From assembly GCA_002841335.1 (NCBI GenBank), contig PHEY01000006.1, positions 97,000-147,440 on the forward strand: a DNA stretch of 50,441 bases. The letters run 5' to 3'. The position numbers were made by a program, and so were the translations under genes. Below, piece after piece: positions 29,052-50,418 of the stretch (positions are counted from its first letter, which is position 1; each line of letters opens with the position of its first letter). This stretch comes from Actinobacteria bacterium HGW-Actinobacteria-2. GTDB taxonomy: Bacteria; Actinomycetota; Actinomycetes; Propionibacteriales; Propionibacteriaceae. The notes beneath the pieces were generated by a model. The model searched no databases and was not told the origin of the DNA. It was given only the letters and a program-made list of their open reading frames with translations.

Positions 29052-30215
29052 CTAGCTCAACCTGAGCAGTGCCGATTGCATCCAGGTGATCAGGGTCGAC
29101 GCCAACCCCTTGAACGGCCAGCCGACCACATTCGGTGGGGTGGGGGCAGCGTGCGGAATGCCCCAGACGCTGACGAACAGGATCGCCGAAAGCGGGTTCC
29201 ACAGCTTCGACTCGATCAGGGCCAGGTTGCCGGCGATCATGCAGATGGCCAGCTCGATCACCAGGATGTGAATCCAGCGGCCGTAGTCGATGCCCAGGAC
29301 GAACAGCGGCGCGATCCCGACCAGGGCGAACACCGCCCACCCCCAATAGCGCCGCAGCCACGGGCTGACCACGATCGGCAGCACGGCCAAGGCGAACATC
29401 AGCAGGTAGCCGCTATGCACATCGAGGTTCTGTTGGACCGCCCGCAGGCTGTCGTCGAGACCGCGTCCCATCCAGGCGATCGCACCGGTGCACAGGTTGG
29501 CGCCCAAGCCGTGGTCGGTGACCGCCTGGCACAGGCGCACCGGAGTGCCCGGGTCTCCGTGGGCCACCACGGACGCCCCGAAGGCGACTGCAGCGATGCC
29601 GGTGTAGGTCGCCGCCAACGTCCGGCGCAGAGGAAGGACATCGTCGGCAAAGAGCAGGAAGCCGATGCCGGGCAGCAGGAAAGCCAATGACTCCCAGGAG
29701 AACACGCCCAGGGTCCAGGCGGCCACGGAGGCAGCCAGTAACCCGCCGCGGAGCCACCGGCTCATGCGCCGGCGGGCGACCGCGAGCAGCACCAAAGCGA
29801 GGAAGCCCAGGATCTCCTTGCGGAAGCCGCCGAGAGGGTCCCAGCCGATGAAGGGCAGGGCTGCCGGTGAGCAGGCCAAGGCGATCGCCGACCAGGAGAA
29901 CCGGCTGCGGAACAAGTAGTCGATGAAATAGCCGAACAGTGGCGCGTAGAGCAGCACCTGAATGCCGAACAACACCCACAAAGCCGCCGGCCCCGGTGGG
30001 GTGATGCCGAGCAAGAGCTCACCGAACAGGCCACGGCGAACGAAGGCGCCGGGATAGCTGATCAGCCAGTCGGCGGTCTGATGGTCATTGCCGCCTGCCG
30101 CGATCACCTCGGCGTAGCGCGCGACGGCGGCATAGGAACTGATAGCCAGGATCGCGAAGGCCACGGCCATGCGTGCGCCGAGGCGCCGACGCGCAGTCAA
30201 CCCCGGATTCGGCAT
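29052..30215 (-). CDS. Polytopic membrane protein of the polysaccharide locus
   Basis: A 387-residue protein with about ten hydrophobic segments and little extramembrane sequence. The pattern near the N-terminus (DWLISYPGAFVRRGLFGELLL), the segment GWDPLGGFRKEI and, toward the C-terminus, FVLGIDYGRWIHIL resemble EpsG-like or lipid-linked-sugar glycosyltransferase membrane proteins. I cannot place it in a defined family. Its position between the initiating sugar transferase and gmd argues for a role in assembly or transfer, perhaps as a second polymerase-like protein or a polyprenyl-phosphate-sugar transferase. ATG 30215 has a weak ribosome site; an internal ATG near 30170 is possible. Confidence 0.75.
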   Translation of the reverse strand: MPNPGLTARRRLGARMAVAFAILAISSYAAVARYAEVIAAGGNDHQTADWLISYPGAFVRRGLFGELLLGITPPGPAALWVLFGIQVLLYAPLFGYFIDYLFRSRFSWSAIALACSPAALPFIGWDPLGGFRKEILGFLALVLLAVARRRMSRWLRGGLLAASVAAWTLGVFSWESLAFLLPGIGFLLFADDVLPLRRTLAATYTGIAAVAFGASVVAHGDPGTPVRLCQAVTDHGLGANLCTGAIAWMGRGLDDSLRAVQQNLDVHSGYLLMFALAVLPIVVSPWLRRYWGWAVFALVGIAPLFVLGIDYGRWIHILVIELAICMIAGNLALIESKLWNPLSAILFVSVWGIPHAAPTPPNVVGWPFKGLASTLITWMQSALLRLS

Positions 30216-30292: not shown

Positions 30293-31762
30293 TCAGTACG
30301 CGCCTGACGGCATGGCGACCGCACGAGCGGTCTTCGCCAAGATCACCAGATCCTGCACCATTGACCAGTTGTCCACGTAGTAGATGTCGAGTCGCACGGT
30401 GTCTTCCCAGGACAGATCCGACCGTCCCGAAACCTGCCACAGGCCGGTGAGGCCCGGGCGGACGTCCAGGCGACGCCGTGCATCCGCATCGTAGCGGGCA
30501 ACCTCGCTGGGCAACGCAGGACGCGGCCCAACCAGGCTCATGTCGCCGACCAGCGCGTTCCAGAACTGCGGAATCTCGTCGATGGAGAAGCGCCGGATGA
30601 ACTTACCGACCTTGGTGATCCGCGGGTCATCGGCCATCTTGAACAGCGGGCCTGCACCCTGGTTGGACGCGGTCAGCGCGGCCAGACGCGCTTCGGCGTC
30701 GACCGACATGCTGCGGAACTTCAGGCACTCGAACAGTTCGCCCTTGAGACCAACCCGGGTCTGCTTGAAGAACACCGGGCCGCCGTCCTCCAGCTTGATC
30801 GCCAAAGCGACGATCGCCATCACGGGGGCGCTGAACAGCAGCAACGCTGCGGCTCCGGCCGAGTCGAACGCTCGCTTGATCCAGCGCACCGAGGCCAGCG
30901 CCTGCGGACGCTCCACGTCCACCAGCGGCAAGCCGGCCACCGGACGAACCTCGAGACGCTGCGCGCTGGTGTCGGTGATCGCCGGAACGACGATCATCTG
31001 GATGTCGTGTTCTTCCAGCTCCCACGACATCCGACGGAACTCTGCCGGAGAGGTGAAGGAACCGTCGGCGAAGATCACCGCAGCGGCATTGCGCTCAGTG
31101 ATGACCTCCACGGTCTCGGTCAGCCGACCGAGGACCGGCAGGCCGGCGGGGGTGTAAGCCACCCGATCGCTGGTGATCGCGCCGATCACCTTGTAGCCCA
31201 GCCAGGATTCCCGGCGCAGCACCTTGGCGATCGCATCCACGTGGCCGCTGTCGCCGGCGACGACGACCGGAGTGGCCAGCGCGCCGCGGACGTGGATCGC
31301 GCCCATCACCCGGCGGCGCAGCCAGCGCACCGCGAGCAGGTTGACGGTGCCGAAGACGAACATCAGCACGAACACCGAACGCGGAAAGTCGAACTTCAAC
31401 AGGTAGCTGGTGATGCCGACCGCGGCGGCGGTAGCGCCGGTGGCCATGATCACCCGCTTGTACTCAGTGACCCCGGCTCGCAGGTGGCGCAGCGCGTCGG
31501 CGTTGAACAGCTTCAACATGAGCAGCCAGGCCACCACGATCATCAGACCGGTCTCGCGCATGATCTGCTCGCTGTCGGGCTGGCCCGCGAACGGCAGCAG
31601 GCCACGAGTGAACACCGACAGCAGCATCGTGAAGATGATCACCAGCAGGTCACCGAGATAAAGAGCAGTGAGCTGGACGCGCTTTGACAGCAGCGGAATT
31701 GGAAGTCGTGACTTGGCGGCGGCCGCAGCGACCGCGTCCAAGTGCCCCGAAATTGTGGTCAT
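30293..31762 (-). CDS. Polyprenyl-phosphate sugar transferase (WbaP/CpsE-like initiating enzyme)
   Basis: The 489-residue protein starts polysaccharide synthesis by moving a sugar-1-phosphate from a nucleotide sugar to undecaprenyl phosphate. It has four N-terminal membrane helices (about 25-145), a CoA-binding-like Rossmann domain (VVVAGDSGHVDAIAKVL), a fifth hydrophobic hairpin near residues 295-315 and the C-terminal catalytic domain: FKQTRVGLKGELFECLKFRSM, DPRITKVGKFIRRFSIDEIPQFWNALVGDMSLVGPRPALP and RPGLTGLWQVSGRS. The first sugar (galactose, glucose or other) cannot be read from sequence. Start ATG 31762 is two bases after GGGGGGA. A 400-base leader with regularly spaced G-runs and a hairpin precedes it, and a strong terminator follows, so it is a separate transcription unit. 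Confidence 0.95.
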   Translation of the reverse strand: MTTISGHLDAVAAAAAKSRLPIPLLSKRVQLTALYLGDLLVIIFTMLLSVFTRGLLPFAGQPDSEQIMRETGLMIVVAWLLMLKLFNADALRHLRAGVTEYKRVIMATGATAAAVGITSYLLKFDFPRSVFVLMFVFGTVNLLAVRWLRRRVMGAIHVRGALATPVVVAGDSGHVDAIAKVLRRESWLGYKVIGAITSDRVAYTPAGLPVLGRLTETVEVITERNAAAVIFADGSFTSPAEFRRMSWELEEHDIQMIVVPAITDTSAQRLEVRPVAGLPLVDVERPQALASVRWIKRAFDSAGAAALLLFSAPVMAIVALAIKLEDGGPVFFKQTRVGLKGELFECLKFRSMSVDAEARLAALTASNQGAGPLFKMADDPRITKVGKFIRRFSIDEIPQFWNALVGDMSLVGPRPALPSEVARYDADARRRLDVRPGLTGLWQVSGRSDLSWEDTVRLDIYYVDNWSMVQDLVILAKTARAVAMPSGAY

Positions 31763-33374: not shown

Positions 33375-33968
33375 TTAGCTGCTTCGCCGTGGCGCTTCCC
33401 GAAGCCCGGTGATCAGGTCGGCCAGCAGGCCGATCGCCGGATCGATGGCGGCGAACGTCGCCGCGAACTGGCGGCGGGGAGCGTTCACCGGATCGATCAC
33501 GTCGTCATCGTCCTGTGCACCGGCCGACAGCCCGCGGTTTCGGCTGGCGAGTTTGGCCAATGCCTCCAGTGGCCCACTGCTGGACATCCGGATCTCACCG
33601 ACCGGATCCAGCTGAATAAGCCGGACGAACTGGCGCAAAGTGAACGTGACGTGGCGGCGTTCGGGGACGAGGCGGGCCACCAGGCGGCGCTGGTCGCGCG
33701 AGGCGGTCAGGATCAACCCGGCCTCCAGCACGCGGTCGGCGGTGAGCTGGGAGGAGACGAAACCGCTGGAGTCGATTCCTCGGCTGCGCAGTTCCACGGC
33801 CACCTCGGGGTGGATCCGGGAGCCGGTGACCGCGTAGGTGCCGGCAGAGGACACCGGCATGCCGACCGCGGCCGTGCCGGCCAGACGGTTGGCCAAAGTG
33901 AGCTCCATGAAGGGTGAGCGGGCGATATTGCCCGTGCACACGAACAGGATTCCGGAACCGTTGCGCAT
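33375..33968 (-). CDS. Low-molecular-weight protein tyrosine phosphatase (Wzb-like)
   Basis: A 197-residue protein with the LMW-PTP P-loop FVCTGNIARSP (Cys11, Arg17) at the N-terminus. A C-terminal acidic stretch with DDDDVIDPV supplies the Asp-Pro that serves as general acid. It is about 40 residues longer than usual LMW-PTPs. Such phosphatases dephosphorylate the Tyr-rich tail of BY-kinases and so control polysaccharide polymerisation. The gene starts three bases after the kinase stop and ends three bases before the GT4 start, which strongly supports it as the partner of the adjacent kinase. Confidence 0.93.
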   Translation of the reverse strand: MRNGSGILFVCTGNIARSPFMELTLANRLAGTAAVGMPVSSAGTYAVTGSRIHPEVAVELRSRGIDSSGFVSSQLTADRVLEAGLILTASRDQRRLVARLVPERRHVTFTLRQFVRLIQLDPVGEIRMSSSGPLEALAKLASRNRGLSAGAQDDDDVIDPVNAPRRQFAATFAAIDPAIGLLADLITGLREAPRRSS

Positions 33969-33971
33969 CGC

Positions 33972-36062
33972 TCAGCCCTTCTTGATCGCCGACAGGATCG
34001 CCGCAGCGAGCTTCTTGTAGCCATCAGCGTTCGGATGGGTTTGGTCGGTATTGAACCACTCGGGGTGGCCCTCCAGGGGGTTACCGACGGCGATGTAGCG
34101 CACGCCGTTGGCCTGTGCGGCCGCCTTGATGTCGGCAGAGGTCTGCTTCAACGCATCGGGGTAGGCGGTGGCCCGCCACAGCGGCGACAGCACGTAGATC
34201 TGGGCGTTGGGTAGGCCCTTCTTCAGGCTGGCGAACAGGCTGTTCGCTGCGGTGCTGACCGAGTTGGTGCCGTCGTTCTCGCCGCCGGAGATCACCACGA
34301 TGTCCGGCTTCTCGGCGATCACCGCATCGGCCATTTCGACGAAGGTGGGGCAGTAGCTCAGCCCACAGCCGTTGGCATCGGAGGAGGTGACATAGCCGGT
34401 CCCGCCGCGACCCAGGTTGACCTCGCTCCAGCCCATTCCCGAGCTCACCAACGACGTCCACTTGGTGCCGCTGCCGCCGGTTCCGGCGACCAGCGAGTCG
34501 CCGATGAAGACCGCCTTCGGGGTGGCCGGGGTGGCCGATGTACTGGGGACGGCAGAGCTCTGCGGGGTGCTGACGCCGCTGGGCTTGGCGGTCTCCTGCG
34601 CGCTGGTCAGCGCCACTGCCGTCATCGTCACCGCGACCGCAGCGACGATCGCCGCCAGCGCCTTGATCACCGGACGCCAGCCCTGCGGCAGCAGGTCGGC
34701 CAGCCGGGTCTGACGATTCCGATCGGAGTAGGCGTAGGCGTACGGCCGCGACGCGTCCTCCTTGGCCAGGTTGAGCACGGTGCCACGGATCGGCACATCG
34801 GCTACGGCCAAGGCGCCCATGGACTGCCGCAGCTCGCTGGTGCGCACCTTGCCACCGCCGACGACCATGATCACGCCGTCGAACTGGCGTCCGATGATCG
34901 CCGCATCAGTGACCGCGGTCAACGGCGGGGTGTCGATGATGGTGACGTCGAACCGGGAGGCGATGGCGCGCAGCGCGTCCTGGCCCCGGCTGGAGCCCAG
35001 CAACTCGCTGGCGTTCGGCGGAATGGTGCCGACCAGGATCACCTGGAGATCGTCGGGGCCCCAGCTTTGGACGGTGTCCTCGATCTGGCATTGCCCCACC
35101 ACGATGTCGCTCAGACCGGGGCCGCCGGTCAGGTCGAGCAGCCCTTCCAGTCGAGGACGGCGCAGGTCGGCTTCGACCAGACAGGTCGACATGCCTTCAG
35201 CCGCGAACGCTGCGGCGATGTTCGCCGCGGTGGTGCTCTTGCCCTCGCCGCTCACCGACGAGGTGACCACGAAGGTCTGGTTCGCTTCGCCGGGAAGGAA
35301 CTTCAAGGCGGTGCGGACGTGGCGGATCGCCTCGGCTCGCAGCGACAGCGGCAAAGCGGTGACCGCGATCGGATGGCGGGAGACCCGACGATCGCGCGGC
35401 ACCGAGGCCAGGACGACCGAGCCGGTCAGCGCCTCCACCTGTTCGGAGGAGTCGACCCGGGCCACGACCAGTTCGACGACCACGAGGTAGGCGATGGCCA
35501 GTACCAGGCCGACCAGCAGGCCGAGCACCGCGTAGAGCGGGATGATCGGCGAGGACGGCTTGTTCGGAACGCCGGCGGCCTCGATCAGTTCGGCGCGAAT
35601 CGGCGCACCCTTCACCTGGTCCACGGTGGGGGTGAGGCTGGCCACAGCCGAGGACAGCTGCTTGGCCACCGCGTTGGCGAGGGCGGCGGCCTGGACGGGA
35701 TCTTTGTCGGTGACCTTGATGGTGATCAGTGAGGTGTTGAGCGGCACCTCGACGTCGACGTTCTTGCGCATGTCGTCGAGGGTGATGTCCAGGCCGAACT
35801 GCTTGATCACCGGCCCGAGGACGACCTCCTTGGTGACCACGGCAGCGAAGTTGCGGGCCTGATCCTGGGAGAACGTGGAGCCTTGGGCGAGGTCGCCGGT
35901 GGACTGGCCACTGGTGACGGTCACGAAAACGTCGGCCGAGGCGGTGTACTTCGGTGCCTGCACCGCGGCGATCACCAAGGCGATGCTGGTGCCCAGCAGC
36001 CCCATCAGGACGATGAGCAGCCACCGTCCTCGGAGCATTCGAAGGACTTCTTGGGTCCCCAT
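33972..36062 (-). CDS. Wzz-BY-kinase (Wzc/CapAB-like) fused to an extracellular SGNH hydrolase
   Basis: One 696-residue open frame combines two known modules. Residues 1-200 are a Wzz chain-length domain with helices at about 14-35 and 173-198. Residues 215-445 are a bacterial tyrosine kinase: Walker A VSGEGKST (Lys275), Walker A' VEADLRRPRL (Asp299), Walker B IIDTPP (Asp377) and a tyrosine cluster RPYAYAYSD (Tyr441, 443, 445). In standard proteins the chain ends there. Here a third helix (about 465-485) and a Ser/Thr/Pro/Ala linker (486-516) lead to an SGNH/GDSL hydrolase: IGDSL (Ser523), GRGGTG, GGENDG (Asn596) and DQTHPNADGY (Asp673, His676), which topology places outside the cell. It probably de-acylates or acylates the exported polysaccharide. 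ATG 36062 follows AAAGGGGGATTG. It heads an operon with its phosphatase and a GT4. Confidence 0.93.
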   Translation of the reverse strand: MGTQEVLRMLRGRWLLIVLMGLLGTSIALVIAAVQAPKYTASADVFVTVTSGQSTGDLAQGSTFSQDQARNFAAVVTKEVVLGPVIKQFGLDITLDDMRKNVDVEVPLNTSLITIKVTDKDPVQAAALANAVAKQLSSAVASLTPTVDQVKGAPIRAELIEAAGVPNKPSSPIIPLYAVLGLLVGLVLAIAYLVVVELVVARVDSSEQVEALTGSVVLASVPRDRRVSRHPIAVTALPLSLRAEAIRHVRTALKFLPGEANQTFVVTSSVSGEGKSTTAANIAAAFAAEGMSTCLVEADLRRPRLEGLLDLTGGPGLSDIVVGQCQIEDTVQSWGPDDLQVILVGTIPPNASELLGSSRGQDALRAIASRFDVTIIDTPPLTAVTDAAIIGRQFDGVIMVVGGGKVRTSELRQSMGALAVADVPIRGTVLNLAKEDASRPYAYAYSDRNRQTRLADLLPQGWRPVIKALAAIVAAVAVTMTAVALTSAQETAKPSGVSTPQSSAVPSTSATPATPKAVFIGDSLVAGTGGSGTKWTSLVSSGMGWSEVNLGRGGTGYVTSSDANGCGLSYCPTFVEMADAVIAEKPDIVVISGGENDGTNSVSTAANSLFASLKKGLPNAQIYVLSPLWRATAYPDALKQTSADIKAAAQANGVRYIAVGNPLEGHPEWFNTDQTHPNADGYKKLAAAILSAIKKG

Positions 36063-36153: not shown

Positions 36154-37608
36154 GTGTCACAGGGAACCGTGGCCGCTGGCGCGGAGGACACCTGGAGTGC
36201 TGGTGTCCGACTCGTCGCCGTCTCGGCGTCCATCGCCACCTTGGCGATCGCGGTGCCCGCGGGGCTGTTGTTCGCCGTTCCCGACACCGGACGCAGCCAG
36301 GCCTGGACGATCACCTTGCTGATCGCAGTGTGGGGTGGGGTTCGCCTTTCGGTGATGTGGGCCAATGGCGAGGCGAAATTGTTCGACTTCTTCTTCTGGC
36401 TCTATACCTATCTGTTTATGGGGGTTGCGGCCACCGTCCAGATTCGGGCGAATGACATTCCCTACACCACCCCGGGGATGAGTCCCAGCCTCGACATGCC
36501 GACCGCCTGGGTGGTGCTGCTCGGGGTGGCCGGCTACGAACTGGCGCACGGGGTGTATGTCCTGACCCGGCGCAAGTCCGGTCACCGAGAGCTGCGACTG
36601 GCCACGGTCAGTGGCGGACGCACCGCTCTGCTCTATCTGGTCGGGATCGCCTTGTCGGGCTACTACGTTGCCAAGGCCGGACTGGGTTTGGCGGTCGCCA
36701 ACCGCTACGCCGCCGACGCCAGACTCAGCATGATCTGGCCGGAGCCGGCCACTCGTGCGATCTTCGTGGCCTTGGCGGTGTATCCGATCCTGGTCGCGGT
36801 CGGTGCGGTGATCCAAGTGCGCCGAGCCACGCCCAAGGGGGACCCGCTCCGCTGGGTGCTGTGGGTGATGGCCGCTGCCGGCGTGGCGGTGCTGGGGGTC
36901 GTGGCCAGCCCGGTCTCATCGGCCCGCTACACCTTCGGCACGGTCGCCTTCGCGATCCTGGTCTATCTCGGCGTGACCAAGACCCGGTTCCGGACCCGGC
37001 TGGCCACCGGCGGCATGATCGGCGCGATGCTGTTCGTGTTCCCGGTGCTGGACATGTTCCGCGGCGGCTCGAGCGACCTCAGCCGCAAGGGCTCTTTCTT
37101 CTCCGAGTATTCCGGCAATCCCGACTACGACTCGTTCTGGCAGATCGCCAATGCGCTGTCCTACAGCTTGAGCGATTCGATGCAGGCAGGCCGCCAGATC
37201 CTGGGCAGCTTGCTGTTCTGGGTGCCTCGAGTGATCTGGCCGGACAAGCCGACCGACACCGGCGTGATGCTGGCCAACTACCGCGGCTACTCCTTCGGCA
37301 ACCTGTCGGCGCCGATGTGGGCCGAGATGCTCGTCAATGGCGGCGTGATCGCGGTCGGTGTCGGATTCGTGATCCTCGGCGTGGTGTTGGCCAGCCTGGA
37401 TCGGCGGATGGCGAGGGCCCATGCGGTTGGCGGTTGGCTGGGACTGGTCGGGGCGATCCTGCCGGTGTACATGATGATCCTGATGCGCGGATCACTGCTT
37501 CAGGCCACCGGCGCGATCGTGGTGGCGCTCGGCTGCCTGTGGTGGGTCAGGCGGGCAGCGCCGCGCGATACTGAGCTGCGAGCCGGTCCGCAATCGCTGT
37601 CATCGTGA
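36154..37608 (+). CDS. Wzy-like oligosaccharide repeat-unit polymerase
   Basis: A 484-residue protein with about twelve membrane helices and a large external loop around residues 305-365 (DMFRGGSSDLSRKGSFFSEYSGNPDYDSFWQIANAL), followed by FWVPRVIWPDKPTDTG and ANYRGYSFGNLSAPMWAEMLVNGG. This matches the O-antigen/exopolysaccharide polymerase pattern, with the conserved SRKG-like and Pro-Asp-Lys loop residues. It would link flipped repeat units on the outer face. GTG 36154 has GGGGGGAGG at 36139-36147 as its ribosome site. It diverges from the kinase-SGNH gene across 91 bases. Its 3' end overlaps the convergent GT4 gene by 62 bases. Confidence 0.87.
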   Translation: MSQGTVAAGAEDTWSAGVRLVAVSASIATLAIAVPAGLLFAVPDTGRSQAWTITLLIAVWGGVRLSVMWANGEAKLFDFFFWLYTYLFMGVAATVQIRANDIPYTTPGMSPSLDMPTAWVVLLGVAGYELAHGVYVLTRRKSGHRELRLATVSGGRTALLYLVGIALSGYYVAKAGLGLAVANRYAADARLSMIWPEPATRAIFVALAVYPILVAVGAVIQVRRATPKGDPLRWVLWVMAAAGVAVLGVVASPVSSARYTFGTVAFAILVYLGVTKTRFRTRLATGGMIGAMLFVFPVLDMFRGGSSDLSRKGSFFSEYSGNPDYDSFWQIANALSYSLSDSMQAGRQILGSLLFWVPRVIWPDKPTDTGVMLANYRGYSFGNLSAPMWAEMLVNGGVIAVGVGFVILGVVLASLDRRMARAHAVGGWLGLVGAILPVYMMILMRGSLLQATGAIVVALGCLWWVRRAAPRDTELRAGPQSLSS

Positions 37609-38656
37609 GCTCGGTCTGCACGGCCCGACGGCCGTTGCGTCCGCATTCCTCGGCGAGCTGAGGGTCGCTGAGCAACTCGGTGATCGCCTGCACCAACGAC
37701 TCCACGTCCGGTTCGCACACCCGTCCGGCCTGATGATCGCGGACGAAATCGGCCAAGCCGCACTGTGAGGTGATCACCACCGGACGTCCGATGCTCAACG
37801 CTTCCAGCACCGACATCGGATAGGGCTCGGCCACGCTCGGCAGGACGTAGATGCTCGCCTGCGCCATTCGCGCCAAGGAGTGCTCGGGGGCCAACGGGCC
37901 TTCCCAGTCCAGATCGGCCGCGCTGGCTTCGATCGCAGCCCGGACCGCCGGGCCCTCACCCTCATCGGGTCCGACCAGCCGGAAGCGGGTGTCGGGGAAG
38001 CGTGCGGTCAGCGCCGAGGCAGCAGCAATGAACTCCAAGGGGCGCTTGCGGGGTGCCAGCCGCGCCAGGTAGAGGACCTCCGCCGGGGTGGGGCCGGCCG
38101 GCGCCTGCGCGGCTTCGGGCACACCATTGGCCAGTGGGACGAACCGCAACTCGCCGGCGACCAGCCGGAGCTGATCGCGCTCGTGATTGGTGAGGTGGAA
38201 CACCGCTGCGGCATCGCGCAGCACACGCCGGGTCACCAGGGCGTCCAGTGGTCCCGCCAGCGGATTGCGGGACGGGTCGATCATGCCGTGCGACTGGACG
38301 AAGTAGGGCAGCCCGGCGCGACGCACCGCGGCCGCGACCGGCAAGGTGACCAGGTCGCGGGCCAGGTGCAGGTGGACCACATCGAAGTCGGCGAGATGGT
38401 CGCGCACCCACCGGGTCAGTGCGGGGGCGCCGAGGCCGGCAAAGCCGGTTCCCGGCAGGATCGTCCGCGCGGGGAAGAGTCGCACGGGAACCTGATCGAT
38501 CGCGGTCGGTGGGTCGATGAAGCCGCGGGTCGCGGCGGCCACGGTCACCTGATGCCCCGCCTCGATCAGGGCCCGAGCCTGGTTCACCGCGACCCGGACC
38601 GGGCCGCCGTAGGCGCCGTCCGGGCTGATCAGGGTGACGACCGAGAGGATCCGCAT
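37547..38656 (-). CDS. GT4 family glycosyltransferase
   Basis: A 369-residue GT-B glycosyltransferase: SPDGAYGGPVRVAVNQARALIEAGHQVTV at the N-terminus (acceptor domain), FDVVHLHLARD, YFVQSHGMIDPSRN, EVLYLARLAPRKRPLEFI and the donor-site SVAEPYPMSVLEALSIGRPVVITSQCG with the E-x7-E motif. It should transfer a nucleotide-activated sugar to the growing lipid-linked unit; the sugars are unknown. Start ATG 38656 overlaps the stop of the acetyltransferase gene by one base (TAATG), so the two are coupled. Its C-terminal 20 codons are antisense to the polymerase gene. Confidence 0.93.
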   Translation of the reverse strand: MRILSVVTLISPDGAYGGPVRVAVNQARALIEAGHQVTVAAATRGFIDPPTAIDQVPVRLFPARTILPGTGFAGLGAPALTRWVRDHLADFDVVHLHLARDLVTLPVAAAVRRAGLPYFVQSHGMIDPSRNPLAGPLDALVTRRVLRDAAAVFHLTNHERDQLRLVAGELRFVPLANGVPEAAQAPAGPTPAEVLYLARLAPRKRPLEFIAAASALTARFPDTRFRLVGPDEGEGPAVRAAIEASAADLDWEGPLAPEHSLARMAQASIYVLPSVAEPYPMSVLEALSIGRPVVITSQCGLADFVRDHQAGRVCEPDVESLVQAITELLSDPQLAEECGRNGRRAVQTELTMTAIADRLAAQYRAALPA

Positions 38657-39198
38657 TACGACGGATTCTTACGCTGCGCCACCGGAGCCAACACGACTTC
38701 GCCGGGGGCGACGTCCTTCACCACCAGGGCGGTGGCGCCGACGGTGGCGTTGTCGCCGATGGTGACCCCGCGCAGCACGGTGGCACGGGTGGCCACCCAG
38801 GCGCCGTCGCCGATGATGATCGGGGCATTGTCGAACTCGAAGGTGGCCGAGCGGTGGTCATGGCTACCGGTGCACAGGAAGACGTCCTGGGAAATGCAGG
38901 TGTTGGCGCCGATGGTGACCGGTTCGAGGTTCAGGATCCAGGTGCCTTCGCCGACCCAGCTGTGGGCGCCCACTGTCAGCTTCCACGGCCAGTGAATGCG
39001 GACTCGGTGGCGGATCAGGGCGCCGTCGCCGATGGTGGCACCGAAGCCGCGCAGCACGGAGGCGCGCAGCGACGGGGGGCACCACCAGTGGTTCAGGAAC
39101 ACGCCGGAAATGGTCAGCCACGCGATCTGCTTCAGCGCTGAGCCACCGCGGGAGTATCCGGCACCGGTGAATCCGGCCAAGTCGAAGCGCGCAGCCAT
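38656..39198 (-). CDS. WcaF-like hexapeptide-repeat acetyltransferase
   Basis: The 180-residue protein has a left-handed beta-helix made of hexapeptide repeats (GATIGDGALIRHRVRI, VTIGANTCISQDVFLCTGSHDH, IIIGDGAWVATRATVLRGVTIGDNATVGA) and the N-terminal extension typical of WcaF/NodL-like O-acetyltransferases. It would acetylate a sugar of the polysaccharide using acetyl-CoA, which would give the SGNH domain of the kinase fusion a possible substrate. I chose ATG 39198, preceded by AGGA; an in-frame ATG at 39207 is nine bases upstream and adds three residues. Confidence 0.9.
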   Translation of the reverse strand: MAARFDLAGFTGAGYSRGGSALKQIAWLTISGVFLNHWWCPPSLRASVLRGFGATIGDGALIRHRVRIHWPWKLTVGAHSWVGEGTWILNLEPVTIGANTCISQDVFLCTGSHDHRSATFEFDNAPIIIGDGAWVATRATVLRGVTIGDNATVGATALVVKDVAPGEVVLAPVAQRKNPS

Positions 39199-39371
39199 GA
39201 AAGTCATCCTAGGTGGGCGTCCCATCCGGGGTGGCCAAACCACGCCTGTACCGTCCCGGGTCGGCGCCGGAAGGGCACTACTGCGGTGCGGACCCCAAGC
39301 GCGCACAGACACCTATGCCAGAATTGCCGCGCTACCGCCGGGCGCCGCCGCTCAGGTCGGGAAAGGAACGC

Positions 39372-40625
39372 ATGCGGGCCCTGTCCGGGCTGAACAGACT
39401 GATCGGCTTCGGGTTGTCGATGGCCGCCTTGGCTGCTGCTGCCCTCGTGGCGATCCCGTGGATGGTGCGAGCCAGTGGCCCCGAAGCCTTCGGCATGATC
39501 GTGCTGGGGCAGAACTTCGGCGCCATCGGCGCGATGGTGGTGGCCTACGGCTGGGGCATCGCCGGACCGGCCGAGATCGCCCGCGGCACCACCGAATCGC
39601 GCCTGGCCGAGTTCCTGGCTTCGGTGAAGGTGCGAGTGTTCCTGCTGGGCCCGGTGGCGGTATTGACCGCGGCGGCCGCGATGCTGCTGGCCACCGGTCG
39701 CGTCGATCTCGCTGCGGTCGGGGCAGTGGTCGCGGTGCTGCCGGGGTTGACGTCCAACTGGGTGTTCATCGGCCTGGGTCGTCCGTTCGTGCTGATGTTG
39801 ACCGAGACCCTGCCACGAGTCGCGTTCACTGTGGTCGGCATCGTCGCCATGGAGACCGGGTCGGACGCCCTGATCGGGCTGATCTGGCAGGGGGTCGGAT
39901 TGCTGGTGGCCTTCGTCGCGTCCAGCTGGTGGGTGCTGCGCGCCTTCGACTACCGCCACGTCGGGCTCGCGGCGCTGCCGCCGCTGCGGACCCTGCTGCG
40001 CGACTACCGACACGGGGTGGCCTCCAATGTCGGCAGCTCACTGTTCGTCGCTCTGCCATTGGTCCTGGTGACCGTGGTCGCCCCCGCGGCACAACCGGTG
40101 TTCGCGCTGGTCGACAAGCTGGAGCGGCAGGCATTGGTGGCGCTGGTCCCGGTGGTGTCGGTGCTGCAGGGGTGGGTACCTCGCGCAGCCGATCCCGCCA
40201 GCCGTGCCCGCAAGGTGGTGATCGGTGCCTCGATCGGCTCGGTGCTGATCGCGCTGGTGGCGGGGCTGTGGGGCCAGTGGCCGCTGCACGTGCTCGGGGA
40301 CGGCCAGTTGACGCCGTCGGCGGACGTGGTGGCGCTGATGGGCGTGGTGTTGGGCCTGTCGTTTTATGTGATCGCCCTTGCCCACACCGTGTTGGCCACC
40401 TACCGCGAGATGCGGGCGCTGGCGATGTCGACCTTCATCGGCACCGTGGTGATGATTCCGCTGGTGGTGGTGGGGGCGTACTACCTGGGCGCCGCTGGGG
40501 CGCTGGCCGGGATCGCCGGCGGTCTGCTGGTGCGGATGAGCATCAAGTTGGTGGTGACATCCCGGTGTCTGCAGGGGCCGCCGCCGGTCAATGACATGGT
40601 GCTACCCAGCGAAGAGATCGTGTGA
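39372..40625 (+). CDS. Wzx-like polysaccharide flippase (PST/MVF superfamily)
   Basis: A 417-residue protein with about twelve to fourteen membrane helices and charged short loops, typical of Wzx lipid-linked oligosaccharide translocases: LNRLIGFGLSMAALAAAALVAIPWMVRASGPEAFGMIVLGQ at the N-terminus, the central GVASNVGSSLFVALPLVLVTVV and EMRALAMSTFIGTVVMIPLVVVGAYYL near the C-terminus. It would move undecaprenyl-linked repeats to the outside for the polymerase at 36154. I chose ATG 39372, which follows GGAAAGGAACGC; the frame is open back to 39213 but without membrane-like sequence. The start is 173 bases from the divergent acetyltransferase gene. Confidence 0.9.
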   Translation: MRALSGLNRLIGFGLSMAALAAAALVAIPWMVRASGPEAFGMIVLGQNFGAIGAMVVAYGWGIAGPAEIARGTTESRLAEFLASVKVRVFLLGPVAVLTAAAAMLLATGRVDLAAVGAVVAVLPGLTSNWVFIGLGRPFVLMLTETLPRVAFTVVGIVAMETGSDALIGLIWQGVGLLVAFVASSWWVLRAFDYRHVGLAALPPLRTLLRDYRHGVASNVGSSLFVALPLVLVTVVAPAAQPVFALVDKLERQALVALVPVVSVLQGWVPRAADPASRARKVVIGASIGSVLIALVAGLWGQWPLHVLGDGQLTPSADVVALMGVVLGLSFYVIALAHTVLATYREMRALAMSTFIGTVVMIPLVVVGAYYLGAAGALAGIAGGLLVRMSIKLVVTSRCLQGPPPVNDMVLPSEEIV

Positions 40626-40697: not shown

Positions 40698-42647
40698 CTA
40701 GCGGCCGGCGACCACAGCGTGATAGCTGAGGTCTTGCTGCGACGTGGTGTCGAAGCTGGCCGCGTCTTTGGTTGTGACGGTGAGAACCGTCGCGCCGGAC
40801 CTGGAGGCGGTTGCGGTGAAGTAACCGGGCTGCAGGTCATACGACTTGGTGAAAAGGCCCGCCTGAGCGGTGTAGCTGTAGGTGGAGCCGGCGATGGTGA
40901 CCGTCACGGTTGCGTCCTGCTTGAGCAGCGTGACGATCTGCACCTTGTTACTGGGGCCGGTCAGACCGGTCCGAGACATCGTTCCGGAGTAGGTGACCGG
41001 GGTGGAGGTGTGCTGGATCCGATGGACGATCATCAGCTTCTCGGTGCCGACCGAGGTCGAACCGCGCTGGAACCTGTTGACGAAGTACTCGTTCAGGTCG
41101 AGGAACGCCCAGCCGTGATCGGCTGACGGGGCGAAGCTGGTCGACTCGGAGTAGTCGTTCCAGGTCGTCATCAGTGCGAGGTCGGCCTTCTGGCTGATCG
41201 CGCGATTCCAGGTGGCCGCCAGGGTGTCGGTGTTGACCGCCTCGGTGTAGAGCTTCTGATTGGGGCGGACGTCCTGCACGGCGACCGGTTCCATCCACAG
41301 CTTGCCCAGACTGTGAGCCTTGGCCGCCCAGTTGGTCCAGGTCGCGGCGGCCTGAGGATCACGGATGCCCCAGTTGCCGAAGCCGATGCTGATCGAGGCG
41401 TAGCTGGACATGTTGGAGGCGTCCAGGAACAGCGGGAGCATCACGGCGTTGACGTTGTAGTTGGACTTCAGCACCTTCAGCATGTCGGCGTACCACGACG
41501 GGGTCTTCGCCTCAGTGTAGAAGGGGGAGATCACCACGGCGCCGTTGCTGTCACGGTAGGTGGAGCCGTAGCCGGCCAGCGAAGCGATCGCCGCAGCGAA
41601 GCTGCTGGTGCTGACGCTGCCGAGGGCGGTCATATCCGGCTGGAGCATCACCTTGAACTGGCCGTCGGCCTCCGCAGCGCGGAGCAGCTTGACGGTCAGC
41701 TGCCAGTTACGGTCAGCGGTGTTGAAGCTGAGGATGTCGACGGCGAAGCCGTTGATCCCGGCCTGCTTGGCCTGGCTGACCTCGGTCTTCATGTCGGTGT
41801 ACTGGAAGTCACCGCTGAGCGGGCTGCGCGGCAACGGACGGTCGCGGAGCAACCCACCGACGCTGGCGAACTTGCCGTTCTCACCGGACGGGAGCAGGTA
41901 CTGGGTGGCGTAGTAGTCACCGGTCCCGTTCACGTTGTCCAGCGAGATCGGGTACGGCGGGAAGTAGTGAGCGAACACCGGGTGGCCGGCAAGGGTGGAG
42001 TTGTTCACGGCCGGTGCCGGTGCAGGCCGTGCCTGCGGCTCGGTGAGGGCGCTGGCGGCACCGATGGTGTAGTCGATGTGCGCGCTGCGGGCGATGATCT
42101 TGGCGGTGTACTTGGTGCCGACCCGGGTGATCCGAAGGCCGCTGCCGGCGGCCAGGTAGGAACTCGCGCTCGGGCTGAGCGAGATCGCGACCACGCCGTT
42201 CTTCTTCAGCTTCGCGGTACCGATGACCGGTCCGACCTGCGGGCGGGACTTGTAGGTGACCTTGGCACCGGACCAGCCGCTGAGGACCGGACGGACGCTC
42301 AGCGAACCCTTGGAGGCGTGGCTGACGCCCTTCACGGTGACGTACAAGGTGGATTGGGTGACCGCTTCGCCGCTGTTGAGTGCGATTCCGGGGAAGGCGA
42401 GGTAGGCGGCGAACCGCTTGCTCACCTTGAGAGTGCCCGTGGTCACGTGGCTGGACTTGCGGTGCTTGGTGTCGGTGAAGGCGCCGGCTGTAGCGCCAAC
42501 CTGACCGGTGCGCGCGGTCACATCGATCGCGGCACTTGGTGTGGCTGTGGGCAGCGAGCTCACGAAGGTGAGCGTGATAACTGCCAATGCGGAGGCAACC
42601 GAGGTGAGGGCACGTCGGATGCGGAGTCCGCCAAGCATGGGGGGCAT
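40698..42647 (-). CDS. Secreted GH71-like endo-alpha-1,3-glucanase with N-terminal DNRLRE-like domain
   Basis: This 649-residue protein has a signal peptide (residues about 12-45, RRALTSVASALAVITLTFVSSLPTATPSAA), a beta-rich DNRLRE/CBM-like domain to about residue 195, a Pro/Ala linker and a GH71-like catalytic domain from about 205 (HPVFAHYFPPYPISLDN, GFAVDILSF, FKVMLQPDM, MTTWNDYSESTSFAPS). A beta-sandwich domain ends the protein. Known GH71 enzymes cut alpha-1,3-glucan. Here it may trim or release the product of the surrounding polysaccharide genes, or degrade foreign glucan. ATG 42647 has AGGAAG immediately upstream. Repeated operator-like sites lie 136 to 270 bases before the start. Confidence 0.85.
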   Translation of the reverse strand: MPPMLGGLRIRRALTSVASALAVITLTFVSSLPTATPSAAIDVTARTGQVGATAGAFTDTKHRKSSHVTTGTLKVSKRFAAYLAFPGIALNSGEAVTQSTLYVTVKGVSHASKGSLSVRPVLSGWSGAKVTYKSRPQVGPVIGTAKLKKNGVVAISLSPSASSYLAAGSGLRITRVGTKYTAKIIARSAHIDYTIGAASALTEPQARPAPAPAVNNSTLAGHPVFAHYFPPYPISLDNVNGTGDYYATQYLLPSGENGKFASVGGLLRDRPLPRSPLSGDFQYTDMKTEVSQAKQAGINGFAVDILSFNTADRNWQLTVKLLRAAEADGQFKVMLQPDMTALGSVSTSSFAAAIASLAGYGSTYRDSNGAVVISPFYTEAKTPSWYADMLKVLKSNYNVNAVMLPLFLDASNMSSYASISIGFGNWGIRDPQAAATWTNWAAKAHSLGKLWMEPVAVQDVRPNQKLYTEAVNTDTLAATWNRAISQKADLALMTTWNDYSESTSFAPSADHGWAFLDLNEYFVNRFQRGSTSVGTEKLMIVHRIQHTSTPVTYSGTMSRTGLTGPSNKVQIVTLLKQDATVTVTIAGSTYSYTAQAGLFTKSYDLQPGYFTATASRSGATVLTVTTKDAASFDTTSQQDLSYHAVVAGR

Positions 42648-42782
42648 GGCTTCCTGCCTTTGTGCGGTCGTACACGTTGTGTCATACGACCCGCGAATGG
42701 CGAGTGGGTGGCTCGCCGTTCCCCCCGAACGGGTATAACCACACGCTATCACCGCCTGGGTAGTCTTGCCACCCGAATTTCC

Positions 42783-42800
42783 CACTCCCTGAGAGGGGAC
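42783..42800. promoter_or_regulatory. Operator-like repeat, degenerate copy
   Basis: CACTCCC-TGAG-AGGGGAC matches the GTCMCCC-N4-GGGGGAC pattern at 10 of 13 fixed positions, with the same 7-4-7 spacing. It starts 25 bases before the perfect copy at 42808. Confidence 0.45.
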
Positions 42801-42807
42801 CTGATCA

Positions 42808-42825
42808 GTCCCCCACAAGGGGGAC
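42808..42825. promoter_or_regulatory. Operator-like inverted repeat GTCCCCC-ACAA-GGGGGAC
   Basis: A perfect 7-bp inverted repeat with a four-base centre, about 160 bases upstream of the glucanase start. It has the size and symmetry of a dimeric repressor or activator site. Two further copies with the same spacing occur at 42900 and 43342. Confidence 0.65.
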
Positions 42826-47219: not shown

Positions 47220-47891
47220 TCAGTAGCCGGTCGACGTCCCGCCGGCCAGCACCGCGGCGGTGCCGGACAGGCCCAGTCGGGTGGCTCCGGCCGCGATCAT
47301 CGCGGTCGCGGTAGCCCAGTCGCGGATTCCACCGGACGCCTTGACGCCCAGCCGTCCGCCGACGGTGGCGGCCATCAGTTCCACGGCGTGCACCGACGCG
47401 CCGCCGGCGGGGTGGTAGCCGGTGGAGGTCTTCACGAAGTCGGCACCGGCAGCCTCGGCAGCCTGGCAGCAGGCCACGATCTCATCGTCGGTGAGGGCGG
47501 CGGATTCGATGATCACCTTCAGCACCTTGCCGGCCGGCACGGCCGCACGCACTGCGGCGATCTCGGCCTGGGTGTCGGCGAAGCGTCCGGCCTTGGCCAG
47601 GCCGAGGTCGATCACCATGTCGACTTCGTCGGCGCCGCGAGCAACCGACTCGGCGGCCTCGTGGGCCTTGGCGCCGGGAGTGTGCTTGCCGGAGGGGAAT
47701 CCGCAGACCGTGGCCACCTTGACCTGGCCGAGGTCGGCGGTCACCGGCAGCATGGCCGGGGAGACACAGATGGAGTAGGTGCCCAGCTGCACTGCTTCGG
47801 CGGCCAGCGCAGCGACATCGGCGTCGGTGGCGGTGGGCGAAAGCAGGGTGTGGTCGACGTAGCGGGCCAGTTCGGCCGGTGTGATGCTCAT
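47220..47891 (-). CDS. deoC: Deoxyribose-phosphate aldolase
   Basis: This 223-residue class I aldolase splits 2-deoxyribose-5-phosphate into glyceraldehyde-3-phosphate and acetaldehyde in nucleoside catabolism. It has [15 protein letters not shown] at the N-terminus, [41 protein letters not shown], the Schiff-base region [14 protein letters not shown] and [13 protein letters not shown] with its catalytic lysine. ATG 47891 overlaps the stop of the AraC-type regulator by one base (TAATG), so both are probably translated together. Confidence 0.96.
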
Positions 47892-48883
47892 TACTCGACC
47901 TTATCGGCTGGTGGGGTGGGGCGAAGTGAGAACTGCTGGCGGTAGGCCTGTGGGGCGACGCCGGTGATCCGGCGGAAGTGATCGCGCAGCACCACGGCGG
48001 AGTTGAAGCCGACCAGGCCGGCGATGTGTTCGACCGGCTCGTCGGTGGTCTCCAGCAACTCCCGGGCGGCCAGGACGCGCTGCTGGGTGAGCCACTTGTG
48101 CGGCGTGGTGCCGGTCTCGGCGGCGAAGCGGCGGGCGAACGTCCGCTCGCTCTGGTGGGACTGGGCGGCCAAGGTGGCCACCGTGTGCGGCTGGTCGAGG
48201 CGTTCCTTGGCCCAGTCGAGCAGGTCGGCGAAGCCGTCGGACTGGCATTCGGGTACCGGGCTGGGGACGTACTGCTGCTGGCCGCCGTCGCGCTGCGGCG
48301 GCACGACCATGCGGCGGGCGATCTGGGCCGCCGCGGCAGCTCCGAGCTCGCGGCGCACCAGGTGCAGGCTGGCGTCGATGCCGGCTGCGGTGCCGGCGCT
48401 GGTGATGATCTGGCCGGTGTCGACGTAGAGCACGTCGGGGTTGACCACAGTGGCGGGGTAGTCGCGTTGCAGCCGTGCGGTGTACTTCCAATGAGTGGTG
48501 CACTCCAGGCCGTCGAGGAGTCCGGCGGCGGCGAGCGGGAAGGCGCCGGAGCACATGCTCATGATGATGCTGCCGGCTTTGTGTGCGGCTCGAATGGCCT
48601 CGAGTGCGGCCGGCGGATACTCCGGGTTCGGGACGATCTTGGTGGCCGCCACCACCACCAGATCGCTGCCGGCGACCTGGTCCAGGCCGTGGGGCGCCAC
48701 GACCTGCATGGCTGAGGTGGTGTTGGTCCGCAGGGGCTTGCCAGGCTCGGCCGCGCAGACGCGGAAGTCGAACAAGGGGAGGCCGTCCTCGGTGCGGTCG
48801 ATGCCGAAGACTTCCACCGGAACGCCGAACTCGAAGACGGCGACCGGCTCGATCAGGATCACGCTGATGCGCTGGAGTGCCAT
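47891..48883 (-). CDS. GlxA-family AraC transcriptional regulator
   Basis: A 330-residue protein with an N-terminal DJ-1/PfpI-like domain ([23 protein letters not shown], the nucleophile-elbow [17 protein letters not shown], then [14 protein letters not shown]) and a C-terminal AraC pair of helix-turn-helix motifs ([26 protein letters not shown] and [22 protein letters not shown]). GlxA-type regulators usually sense small metabolites; the ligand is not known. Start ATG 48883 is used because [13 protein letters not shown] fits the family start. It overlaps deoC and is likely its operon partner and regulator. Confidence 0.92.
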
Positions 48884-48967
48884 CGCAGCAGTGTATGGCA
48901 GGAATCCTTTGAATAGTGGCTTTCCGGCCACTGGTGGCAAGGAAGCTTCGCTAGAAGGATTACTGCC

Positions 48968-49315
48968 ATGGTTGAAGTGATCGTCGTGATCTTGTTGGCA
49001 GCGGCCGCGCTGGCCGCCTTCCAGCCTGCGCACCGCCGCACCTGGCGGCCGGGGCTCGACACCCGCTTCGACCGAGACCGGGCTCGGCTGATCGACGAAC
49101 TCGCCCTTCTGGAGTCGTTCGACGAACCGCAGCCTGCGCCGCCGGTGGCGCGGTTCGATGGGGAGTGCCAGGAACTCTCCCCATCGAACGCCGGCGCCGA
49201 TCCCTATCGCCGGTTCATCAGCAGCCGCAGTGACAGGAACCGCAACAACGTGGCCGCAGCATTGGCCGCCACCAGTACCGCCAGTTCGACCCAGCGTCCG
49301 GCGGTCGGGGCGTAG
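48968..49315 (+). CDS. Small membrane-anchored protein, uncertain 3' end
   Basis: The frame of 115 codons starts at ATG 48968 with AAGGA eight to nine bases upstream. It encodes one N-terminal helix (VEVIVVILLAAAALAAF) followed by an Arg-rich segment (AHRRTWRPGLDTRFDRDRARLIDELALLESFDEP). To about residue 60 the codon use looks coding. Beyond that it enters a strong hairpin and then runs antisense to the end of the GT2-GtrA gene for 112 bases, where the protein is of low complexity. The functional product may be only the first part, or the frame may be chance. No family is recognised. Confidence 0.45.
   Translation: MVEVIVVILLAAAALAAFQPAHRRTWRPGLDTRFDRDRARLIDELALLESFDEPQPAPPVARFDGECQELSPSNAGADPYRRFISSRSDRNRNNVAAALAATSTASSTQRPAVGA
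49153..49189. terminator. Hairpin between convergent genes
   Basis: GTTCGATGGGGAG (49153-49165) and CTCCCCATCGAAC (49177-49189) pair perfectly over 13 bases with an 11-base loop. It lies 15 bases past the minus-strand stop at 49204 and inside the putative small plus-strand gene. It most likely terminates the GT2-GtrA transcript. Confidence 0.75.
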
Positions 49316-50418
49316 GTCGACAGCAACCACAGCGAACCGGACGTCAGGCCCAGGGCCAGCCCGAACGCGGCGAGGCCGCCCAGGTGGTGCTTCAGTGCGC
49401 CGGACGATCCGGAGATGCCGAAGGTGAAGCGACGGTTGGCTGCGGTGTTCAGCACCGCGGTGATCAGCAGGGCCGCGAGGTTCGCCGCCTGCGCCCCGAA
49501 CGGGCGCAGCAGCAGGTAGATCACGAAGTAGGCCAACGTGCTTGCCACCCCGACCGCGGCGAACCGCAGCATTTGGGCCAGCATGCCGTTGGGCACCCCG
49601 GGCACACTGGCCGGAATGTCGTCGCGGGCGAGTTCGGCGCGCAACCGGGCCACCGGGATCCGTCCGGTGGCGAACCCGCGCAGCAGTCGCCACACACCTT
49701 TGAGGTCCTCGACGGCGGTGTCGATGATGTTCACCGTCGAGCCGGGATCGTCGACCCAATCGACCGGCACCTCGTGAATGCGCAGTCCGGCGCGTTCGGC
49801 CAGCACCAACAACTCGGTGTCGAAGAACCAGTTGTTGTCCTCCACCAGCGGCAGCAGCCGGTCGGCGACATCGCGACGGATGGCCTTGAAGCCGCACTGG
49901 GCATCGGAGAAGGACGCCCCCAGGCTGGCCTTCAGGATGAAGTTGTAGCTGCGCGAGATGAACTCCCGCTTCGGCCCGCGCACCACCCGCGAACCACGGC
50001 TGAGCCGAGTGCCGATGGCCAGATCGGAATGCCCACTCACCAATGGCGCGACCAGCGGCAACAGCGCCTTCAGATCGGTGGACAGGTCGACGTCCATGTA
50101 GGCCACCACATCGGCGTCGGAATCCAACCAGACCTGCCGCAGGGCGCGTCCGCGTCCCTTGGCATCGAGGTGGACGGCCCGGATGTGGGGGTGCCGGTCC
50201 TCCAGTCGCCGAGCGATCTCGAAGGTGGAGTCGGTCGAGGCGTTGTCGGCGATGATCACCCGGTAGTCATAGGGGAAGGAGTCGGCCAGGTAGTGGTCGA
50301 GCCGCAGCACCGACGCGGACAGGTCCAGTTCCTCGTTGTAGACCGGGATGATCACATCGACGACGGCGGTGCGCAGGGTCTGGGCGGTGGCGGCCGGGGC
50401 CGGCATGAGAGTGCTCAT
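49204..50418 (-). CDS. GT2 glycosyltransferase with C-terminal GtrA domain
   Basis: A 404-residue protein. The first 240 residues form a GT-A glycosyltransferase of the dolichyl-phosphate sugar synthase type: VDVIIPVYNEELDLSASV, IIADNASTDST, VVAYMDVDLSTDLKALLP with the metal-binding Asp residues, and DAQCGFKAIRRDVADRLLPLVEDNNWFFDTELLVLAERAG. Residues about 280-400 are a four-helix GtrA-like domain (LRFAAVGVASTLAYFVIYLLLRPFGAQAANLAALLITAVLNTAANRRFTFG). Such fusions make and help flip polyprenyl-phosphate-linked sugars used to decorate surface polymers. ATG 50418 follows GTGAGGTTGCG. The promoter lies outside or at the very edge of the window. Confidence 0.93.
   Translation of the reverse strand: MSTLMPAPAATAQTLRTAVVDVIIPVYNEELDLSASVLRLDHYLADSFPYDYRVIIADNASTDSTFEIARRLEDRHPHIRAVHLDAKGRGRALRQVWLDSDADVVAYMDVDLSTDLKALLPLVAPLVSGHSDLAIGTRLSRGSRVVRGPKREFISRSYNFILKASLGASFSDAQCGFKAIRRDVADRLLPLVEDNNWFFDTELLVLAERAGLRIHEVPVDWVDDPGSTVNIIDTAVEDLKGVWRLLRGFATGRIPVARLRAELARDDIPASVPGVPNGMLAQMLRFAAVGVASTLAYFVIYLLLRPFGAQAANLAALLITAVLNTAANRRFTFGISGSSGALKHHLGGLAAFGLALGLTSGSLWLLSTYAPTAGRWVELAVLVAANAAATLLRFLSLRLLMNRR

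Follow-up and report, generated by a model that had tools for sequence, protein, structure and literature searches.

The 50,441-nucleotide stretch of DNA analysed here, termed the window, derives from Actinobacteria bacterium HGW-Actinobacteria-2 (family Propionibacteriaceae; assembly GCA_002841335.1, contig PHEY01000006.1, positions 97,000 to 147,440) and encodes, within a colanic-acid-like exopolysaccharide (EPS) locus, a single protein in which a Wzz domain and a bacterial tyrosine kinase (BY-kinase) continue into a third membrane helix, a linker and an SGNH hydrolase domain. Judged from the sequences, the protein combines known parts in a new domain architecture and displays an unexpected pattern in that the outer domain repeatedly loses its catalytic His yet persists. 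The interpretation that we favour, with about even confidence, is that the SGNH domain constitutes an esterase-derived external glycan-recognition head on a co-polymerase/kinase, most simply fused once and probably still catalytic in the window copy.

The fusion gene lies on the minus strand, where a frame of 696 codons without a stop extends from an ATG at 36062 to the stop codon at 33974-33972; a preliminary description of this DNA had given the same coordinates (33972..36062) without stating the strand. Residues 5-205 (35448..36050) comprise the Wzz region with its two flanking membrane helices, TM1 and TM2, identified by hydropathy, by helices of the predicted model and by a Pfam Wzz match above cut-off (residues 5-88; 33.1 bits against 25.5). 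The BY-kinase domain extends over residues 245-443 (34734..35330), to which the NCBIfam tyrosine autokinase family TIGR01007 aligns with 149.4 bits (cut-off 108.05); a ParA-type P-loop match from Pfam covers residues 261-433, and the solved structures matched by this part are BceF, CapAB, Etk and Wzc. The kinase motifs SGEGKST, E[AS]DLRRP and IDxPP align in all ten fusions found in this study; the usual Walker A' motif has Asp where the fusions have Glu297. The Tyr cluster (Y441, Y443 and Y445; 34728..34742), of which Y443 and Y445 are present in 10/10 fusions and Y441 in 8/10, forms an internal strap rather than a free C-terminus, with 251 more residues following it in the window protein. These residues include TM3 (468-486; 34605..34661), a hydropathy segment found in 10/10 fusions, a linker rich in Ser, Thr, Pro and Ala (487-515; 34518..34604) and the SGNH domain (516-696; 33975..34517), which is matched by Pfam Lipase_GDSL_2 at residues 519-683 (E 1.3e-19). 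The Ser, Gly (GRGGTG), Asn and His blocks of SGNH hydrolases are all present, with the codon of Ser523 (block I, GDS) at 34494..34496, that of Asn596 (block III) at 34275..34277 and block V, Asp673-Gln-Thr-His676, at 34035..34046. Translation, alignment and domain matches bear out the preliminary description, both where it had placed Tyr441/443/445, Ser523, GRGGTG, Asn596, Asp673 and His676 and in its account of one uninterrupted protein made of Wzz, BY-kinase, TM3, Ser/Thr/Pro linker and SGNH parts. No stop or frameshift separates the kinase from the SGNH domain, and the full-length frame recurs in ten genomes, the window's included, which rules out a frameshift, sequencing error or assembly chimera.

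Hydropathy analysis of the window protein revealed three segments (16-34, 178-196 and 468-486), while the full-length model has helices at 14-34 and 174-200, corresponding to TM1 and TM2, and a low-confidence helix at 460-486 that covers TM3. Lys and Arg are commoner before TM1 than after it, and likewise around TM3 (three in the 15 preceding residues, one in the 15 following), a bias consistent with a kinase in the cytosol and an SGNH domain outside. The prediction is thus that kinase and Tyr cluster are cytosolic and that the SGNH head lies outside, as had been proposed earlier, the support for this topology being hydropathy and the charges at TM1 and TM3, with which TM2 does not agree. Structure prediction, one of the checks recommended in the preliminary description, gave a confidently folded SGNH domain (predicted local distance difference test score, pLDDT, 92.5; predicted template modelling score, pTM, 0.90) that matches solved SGNH esterases. 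The best Foldseek match is a GDSL esterase from Geobacillus thermodenitrificans (7e16; E 5.8e-9), others being EstL5, the carbohydrate esterases CE2 and CE3, platelet-activating factor acetylhydrolase and TesA, with PatB and OatA lower down at ranks 24 and 42. The full-length model (pTM 0.49) carries no information on the placement of the domains.

A search with the whole protein gave some match in 177 of 198 genomes of the family and a full-length match in 10, eight from the window's genus (30 genomes) and two from a second genus (39 genomes); all ten fusions occupy the same colanic-acid-like EPS locus. The SGNH profile (E <= 1e-8) detected 37 of 197 family genomes, 10 of them fused. The same profile was run in 391 genomes of the order and 394 of the class, at most 8 candidates being scored per genome, and among the matches listed no fusion was found outside the family in the 30 loci from these searches. 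Another 25 SGNH matches with frames of at least 480 amino acids (three in-family and 22 out-of-family), hand-picked among the matches listed with shorter frames judged unfused by their length, have no kinase in frame. In 396 genomes of the phylum, with 2 candidates scored per genome at E <= 1e-60, the full-length profile recovered a full-length match only in its own genome. Searches of this kind would miss independent fusions with unrelated SGNH domains. The search for this architecture across genomes, as first suggested, therefore yields the fusion in ten genomes of two genera and none found outside the family; the possibility raised with it, that homologues are always two separate genes, does not agree with the ten fusions, and neighbours with separate genes exist. 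No description of a BY-kinase joined to an SGNH/GDSL domain was found in the open-licence literature, among the matches listed and as judged from titles and the starts of abstracts, in agreement with the earlier statement that no example was known, and by term count the words "kinase" and "Wzc" are absent from the main text of an SGNH review (PMC9487903).

The catalytic residues are not conserved among the fusion orthologues. Ser523 is present in 10/10, Asp673 in 9/10, Asn596 in 7/10 and His676 in 4/10, so that His is missing from six fusions and Asn from three. His676 together with intact Ser, Asn and Asp is found in the window and in L003, L005 and L010 (L and G numbers are our handles for loci and genomes, respectively), and it is replaced by Thr in L002 (91% identical to the window protein) and L006, by Arg in L004 and L013 and by Ala in the twins L014/L015, three of the losers being sisters of keepers. 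The codon at position 676 is CAT in keepers and ACC, CGC, ACC, CGG or GCC in losers; since each loser codon is at least two substitutions away from CAT, single sequencing errors do not explain the losses. On the tree of fusions His676 changes 5 times, against 14 changes in total over the 32 other columns that count as family-conserved (at least 9 of 10 intact members alike; "intact" is defined by Ser, Asn and His, which makes the conservation of S523, N596 and H676 there a matter of construction). His676 was apparently lost about five times independently, a count obtained by Fitch parsimony on the kinase-tree topology, which has some weak forks, and assuming no regain; parsimony over all 39 rows of the SGNH tree gives 7 changes of His state. 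In the underlying fusion alignment L010 lacks its first 13 residues, and L014 and L015 also lack their first residues. A substitute His was looked for in the SGNH part, and there is no His at all in that of L004, L006 and L013; those of L002, L014 and L015 have His elsewhere, and an alternative base is possible in these three. Replacement of the equivalent Ser, Asn or His by Ala inactivated a Streptomyces SGNH lipase (PMC10779480).

Despite the loss of His, the SGNH domain is under purifying selection according to ratios of nonsynonymous to synonymous substitution (dN/dS) of 0.126 for window/L002, 0.117 for L003/L004, 0.155 for L005/L006 and 0.191 for L014/L015, the first three pairs each joining a His keeper to a loser, so that the value averages both, and the last joining two losers of small divergence. 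The corresponding values of the kinase are 0.046, 0.035, 0.021 and 0.163. Cys566/Cys571, Gly593/Gly594 and Asp597 are present in 10/10 fusions. Identity between L005 and L006 drops to 0.85-0.87 in the SGNH segment, compared with 0.91-1.0 in the rest of the shared 11.6 kb (loci L143/L128), a trough that suggests a possible local allele exchange or diversification.

The ten fused SGNH domains form one clade in the SGNH tree (Shimodaira-Hasegawa-like approximate likelihood-ratio test, SH-aLRT, 99), in which no branch sets the three outgroup rows apart from all others, and a single clade of the kinase tree unites the ten fusions with G045 (SH-aLRT 99); both trees are quick searches without bootstrap, and some forks of the kinase tree are weak. 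G045 (L132), whose kinase has TM3 and a short external tail without an SGNH domain, nests with two fusions (92) and has most simply lost its head. In the kinases nearest outside the fused clade, L139 (G389, from another family) and L133 (G106), the SGNH domain is a separate gene adjoining the kinase in a related EPS locus. Alignments of four stand-alone SGNH proteins to the window protein start at residues 467, 472, 482 and 447, of which the first two cover most of TM3, the third lies near its end and the fourth was read through a stop. The stand-alone proteins have an N-terminal anchor and a Pro/Ser/Thr stalk of their own; together with the match starts, this leads us to the view that a former stand-alone protein contributed its anchor as TM3 and its stalk as the linker. 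Most simply, a membrane-anchored SGNH protein would have been fused to the kinase in one ancestral event.

Gene neighbourhoods associate this SGNH family with BY-kinases beyond the fusion as well. A Wzz/BY-kinase frame is located within ~1.5 kb of an in-family stand-alone SGNH gene in 14 of 20 loci, 13 of the 14 being divergent; three weaker in-family loci have no adjacent kinase, giving 14 of 23 examined, of 32 places listed. Among the SGNH loci of the order and class, 1 of 30 has an adjacent BY-kinase (L095, the locus of L139), and none was found beside the 22 further out-of-family long-frame SGNH genes. EPS genes do occur near some of these control loci, as G416 and G534 have a BY-kinase on the same contig, ~8-27 kb from the SGNH match. 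Ser, Asn and His occur together in one of the 20 aligned in-family stand-alone domains (L048), as well as in the out-of-family L095, L096, L097, L098 and L101 and the three outgroup rows, and the block V His is missing in all 14 in-family stand-alone domains with a kinase within 1.5 kb. A clade of 13 stand-alone proteins (L051 and L053-L064) is without this His and in 12 cases has Ala for Asn; the proteins are membrane-anchored, and 12 adjoin a BY-kinase gene. Invariant residues of the clade include, in window numbering, Ser525, Arg555, Phe592, Asp599, Tyr609 and His641, a pattern that looks like new function rather than decay, relatedness alone also keeping residues alike. We found no name for these His-less kinase-adjacent SGNH-like proteins. 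Cys566 and Cys571 are present in 36 of the 39 aligned domains and absent from the three outgroups. As a separate observation, L101 (G542) contains a 412-amino-acid frame with two SGNH matches (G542:C17:1147-1701 and 1717-2289).

Four elements of the favoured interpretation, namely the architecture, the locus, the repeated loss of His and the purifying selection, come directly from these sequence comparisons. A Wzc-type co-polymerase/BY-kinase would have absorbed a membrane-anchored SGNH protein consisting of anchor helix, Ser/Thr/Pro stalk and SGNH domain. One SGNH head would then stand outside each subunit, at the expected site of polymer synthesis by Wzy and the Wzz domain, and its lasting role would be recognition or docking of nascent acetylated EPS via the esterase-derived pocket. 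Glycan binding by such a pocket would have a precedent in CtCE2, an SGNH-fold esterase whose active site also binds cellulose non-catalytically (PMC2661963), and CE2 structures are among the Foldseek matches. With its catalytic residues intact, the window copy has probably retained some esterase activity and with it ester removal, while other lineages would have lost the His and kept the domain. A strap of ~30 residues that joins the kinase core to TM3 contains the Tyr cluster, a tail tied at both ends, and binding of polymer outside could alter how accessible this tail is and how the octamers cycle inside. The Tyr-rich C-terminus of Wzc extends into the adjacent subunit, and the octamer comes apart on phosphorylation (PMC8285477). 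Signalling through TM3 in the fusion is speculative.

Several observations weigh against this interpretation. The window triad is intact, and catalysis may be the whole story for this copy; Ser523, kept in every fusion, is not required by binding alone. The head is dispensable in G045, a natural deletion. The SGNH domain changes faster than the kinase, which would also fit slow decay, and 15 of its 173 columns change five times or more, so that H676, although a catalytic residue, is as fast as the fastest. The identity trough of L005/L006 is a signal of exchange or diversification, seen in that pair only. Around TM2, the charges counted over 15 residues depart from the positive-inside rule. 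Finally, pLDDT falls below 50 at residues 437-469 and 478-511, between kinase and SGNH domain, and a rigid signalling path is therefore unsupported.

The genes around the fusion are those of an EPS locus. Next downstream lies a low-molecular-weight tyrosine phosphatase (Wzb-like; 33375..33968, minus strand; LMWPc 61.8 bits), which adjoins the fusion in the nine other loci as well, and the divergent neighbour is a tentative Wzy-like polymerase (36154..37608, plus strand; TIGR04370 28.3 bits, below the cut-off of 40), found at the same position in the nine other loci. The WcaF-like hexapeptide acetyltransferase noticed in the preliminary description (38656..39312, minus strand; NF007797 185.3 bits, just below the cut-off of 192) is present in all 10 fused loci whatever the state of His676, which rules out that the His tracks the presence of the acetyltransferase. 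A polyprenyl glycosylphosphotransferase is located at 30293..31762 (minus strand; Bac_transf, TIGR03025), and further family-supported EPS genes of the window encode Gmd, a WcaI-like and a second glycosyltransferase of family GT4, and a glycoside hydrolase of family GH71 (40698-42818, minus strand) that marks the edge of the locus, is found in the nine other fused loci too and has two copies in L128 and L139. An Epimerase-family gene carries our own label Fcl, and a 470-amino-acid open reading frame (ORF) at 39213-40625, without family match, was labelled Wzx from its position and coding-like composition. All ten fused loci have recognisable phosphatase, Wzy-like, GT4, WcaF-like and GH71 genes. 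A 387-amino-acid hydrophobic protein without family match (29052-30215, minus strand) occurs in the EPS locus of L125-L129 and was not recognised in L130-L132. Between the WcaF-like and GH71 genes, ~2.7 kb do not align between L125 and L126 (the L003/L004 pair); this stretch holds a presumed flippase gene in L126, none being recognised in L125 or L127, and a replacement of the flippase gene between L125 and L126 is possible. Elsewhere in the window, a 668-amino-acid frame (47891-49897, minus strand) has DJ-1/PfpI and AraC-type helix-turn-helix domains in its second half, and as the first 340 residues are without match, its true start is probably downstream. No AT3 acyltransferase gene lies closer than ~85 kb on the contigs of the fused genes in the ten genomes, two of these contigs being only 11.6 and 14.9 kb long, and no Pfam match to AT3 or MBOAT, the latter looked for in the window alone, was found among the window ORFs scanned (those right of 23.4 kb).

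The alternative that survives best, although we consider it somewhat unlikely, is that the head is an active de-O-acetylase, removing from the polymer under synthesis acetyl groups that the WcaF-like enzyme would add in the cytosol and so coupling chain length to acetylation, much as the preliminary description had envisaged. The intact Ser, Asn, Asp and His of the window, L003, L005 and L010, the WcaF-like gene in the locus, the closeness of the fold to CE2 and CE3 and the intact stand-alone SGNH protein of G389 (L095, L139), likewise encoded in an EPS locus that includes a WcaF-like gene, are all consistent with it. However, His is lost in six fusions whose loci still carry the WcaF-like gene, the three residues coexist in the single in-family stand-alone homologue mentioned above, and substitutions equivalent to those seen abolished activity in the SGNH lipase. 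Coupling of chain length to deacylation is hence not upheld as the general function, given the His and Asn losses beside a universal WcaF-like gene, but may hold for the window copy.

An unlikely extension of the favoured interpretation is a receptor-like tyrosine kinase, in which the head would read growing or acetylated EPS and pull the Tyr strap via TM3, thereby gating phosphorylation, octamer cycling and chain length. If this were true, the separate His-less SGNH proteins beside BY-kinases would represent that sensor divided between two genes.

We regard as decidedly improbable that the SGNH domain is a passenger, purposeless after fusion and eroding, with the His losses and the G045 deletion as steps of its decay. 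The roughly five independent His losses, the Asn losses, the deletion in G045 and a dN higher in the SGNH domain than in the kinase for each of the four close pairs would fit such a course, but SGNH dN/dS stays at 0.12-0.19, none of the ten fusions has a stop or frameshift, the Cys pair, Gly593/Gly594 and Asp597 are universal, and changes among the family-conserved columns concentrate on His676. A fast-changing surface module, exposed and exchanged between strains under pressure from, for example, phages or predators that would drive the loss of catalysis, is compatible with the other interpretations and, as an explanation, very unlikely: the trough in SGNH identity of L005/L006, accompanied by a dS of 0.56 in the SGNH domain against 0.22 in the kinase, points towards it, but is confined to one pair, being absent from window/L002 and not clear in L003/L004, and dN/dS stays low. 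That the head is an acyltransferase, taking acyl groups from a membrane partner and transferring them to the polymer in the manner of OatA, PatB or AlgX, an option offered in the preliminary description, is hardly credible, for although PatB and OatA are among the fold matches and SGNH domains of the OatA/PatB/AlgX type act outside the membrane (PMC9487903), no donor is visible, AT3 being missing within ~85 kb as far as the contigs reach and AT3 and MBOAT among the scanned window ORFs, and transfer would need the same catalytic residues.

The fusion bears on how Wzc-type kinases sense polymer outside the membrane, for which we know of no established mechanism. By tying an esterase-derived, possibly glycan-binding outer domain to the phospho-tail, it would be a concrete, naturally occurring candidate for such a sensor, and sister genomes with and without the catalytic His would provide a natural experiment separating catalysis from binding. 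The His-less SGNH-like proteins beside kinase genes, in turn, point to an accessory component of the EPS machine in these Actinobacteria.

Compared with known systems, the fusion most resembles the Wzc/CapAB (polysaccharide co-polymerase 2, PCP-2) proteins in its Wzz domain with two membrane helices, P-loop kinase, Tyr cluster, adjoining Wzb-like phosphatase and Wzx/Wzy-type EPS locus. Those proteins end at the Tyr-rich tail, whereas the fusion continues into a third helix and a predicted external SGNH domain. With the SGNH/GDSL hydrolases, and CE2 and CE3 in particular, it shares the fold and, in the window copy, all catalytic blocks, but it is membrane-tethered on a kinase, lacks the His in 6/10 orthologues and has the extra Cys pair 566/571; moreover, the N-terminal jelly-roll that is a feature of CE2 (PMC2661963) is absent, a low-confidence Ser/Thr/Pro-rich linker preceding the SGNH domain instead. 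OatA, PatB and AlgX likewise have extracytoplasmic, membrane-linked SGNH domains acting on cell-surface polymers, as is predicted for the fusion, which differs in being joined to a co-polymerase/kinase rather than an acyltransferase and has no AT3 partner in sight nearby. CtCE2 of Clostridium thermocellum, the precedent for additional, non-catalytic glycan binding at an SGNH esterase site, is in contrast part of a plant cell-wall degrading enzyme and keeps its esterase activity (PMC2661963). The BY-pseudokinases EcpK and HfsB offer a parallel for catalysis lost in a co-polymerase partner, a scaffold role having been proposed for EcpK (PMC12004946); in these proteins it is the kinase that is dead, while in the fusion the kinase motifs are intact and it is the outer SGNH domain that loses catalytic residues.

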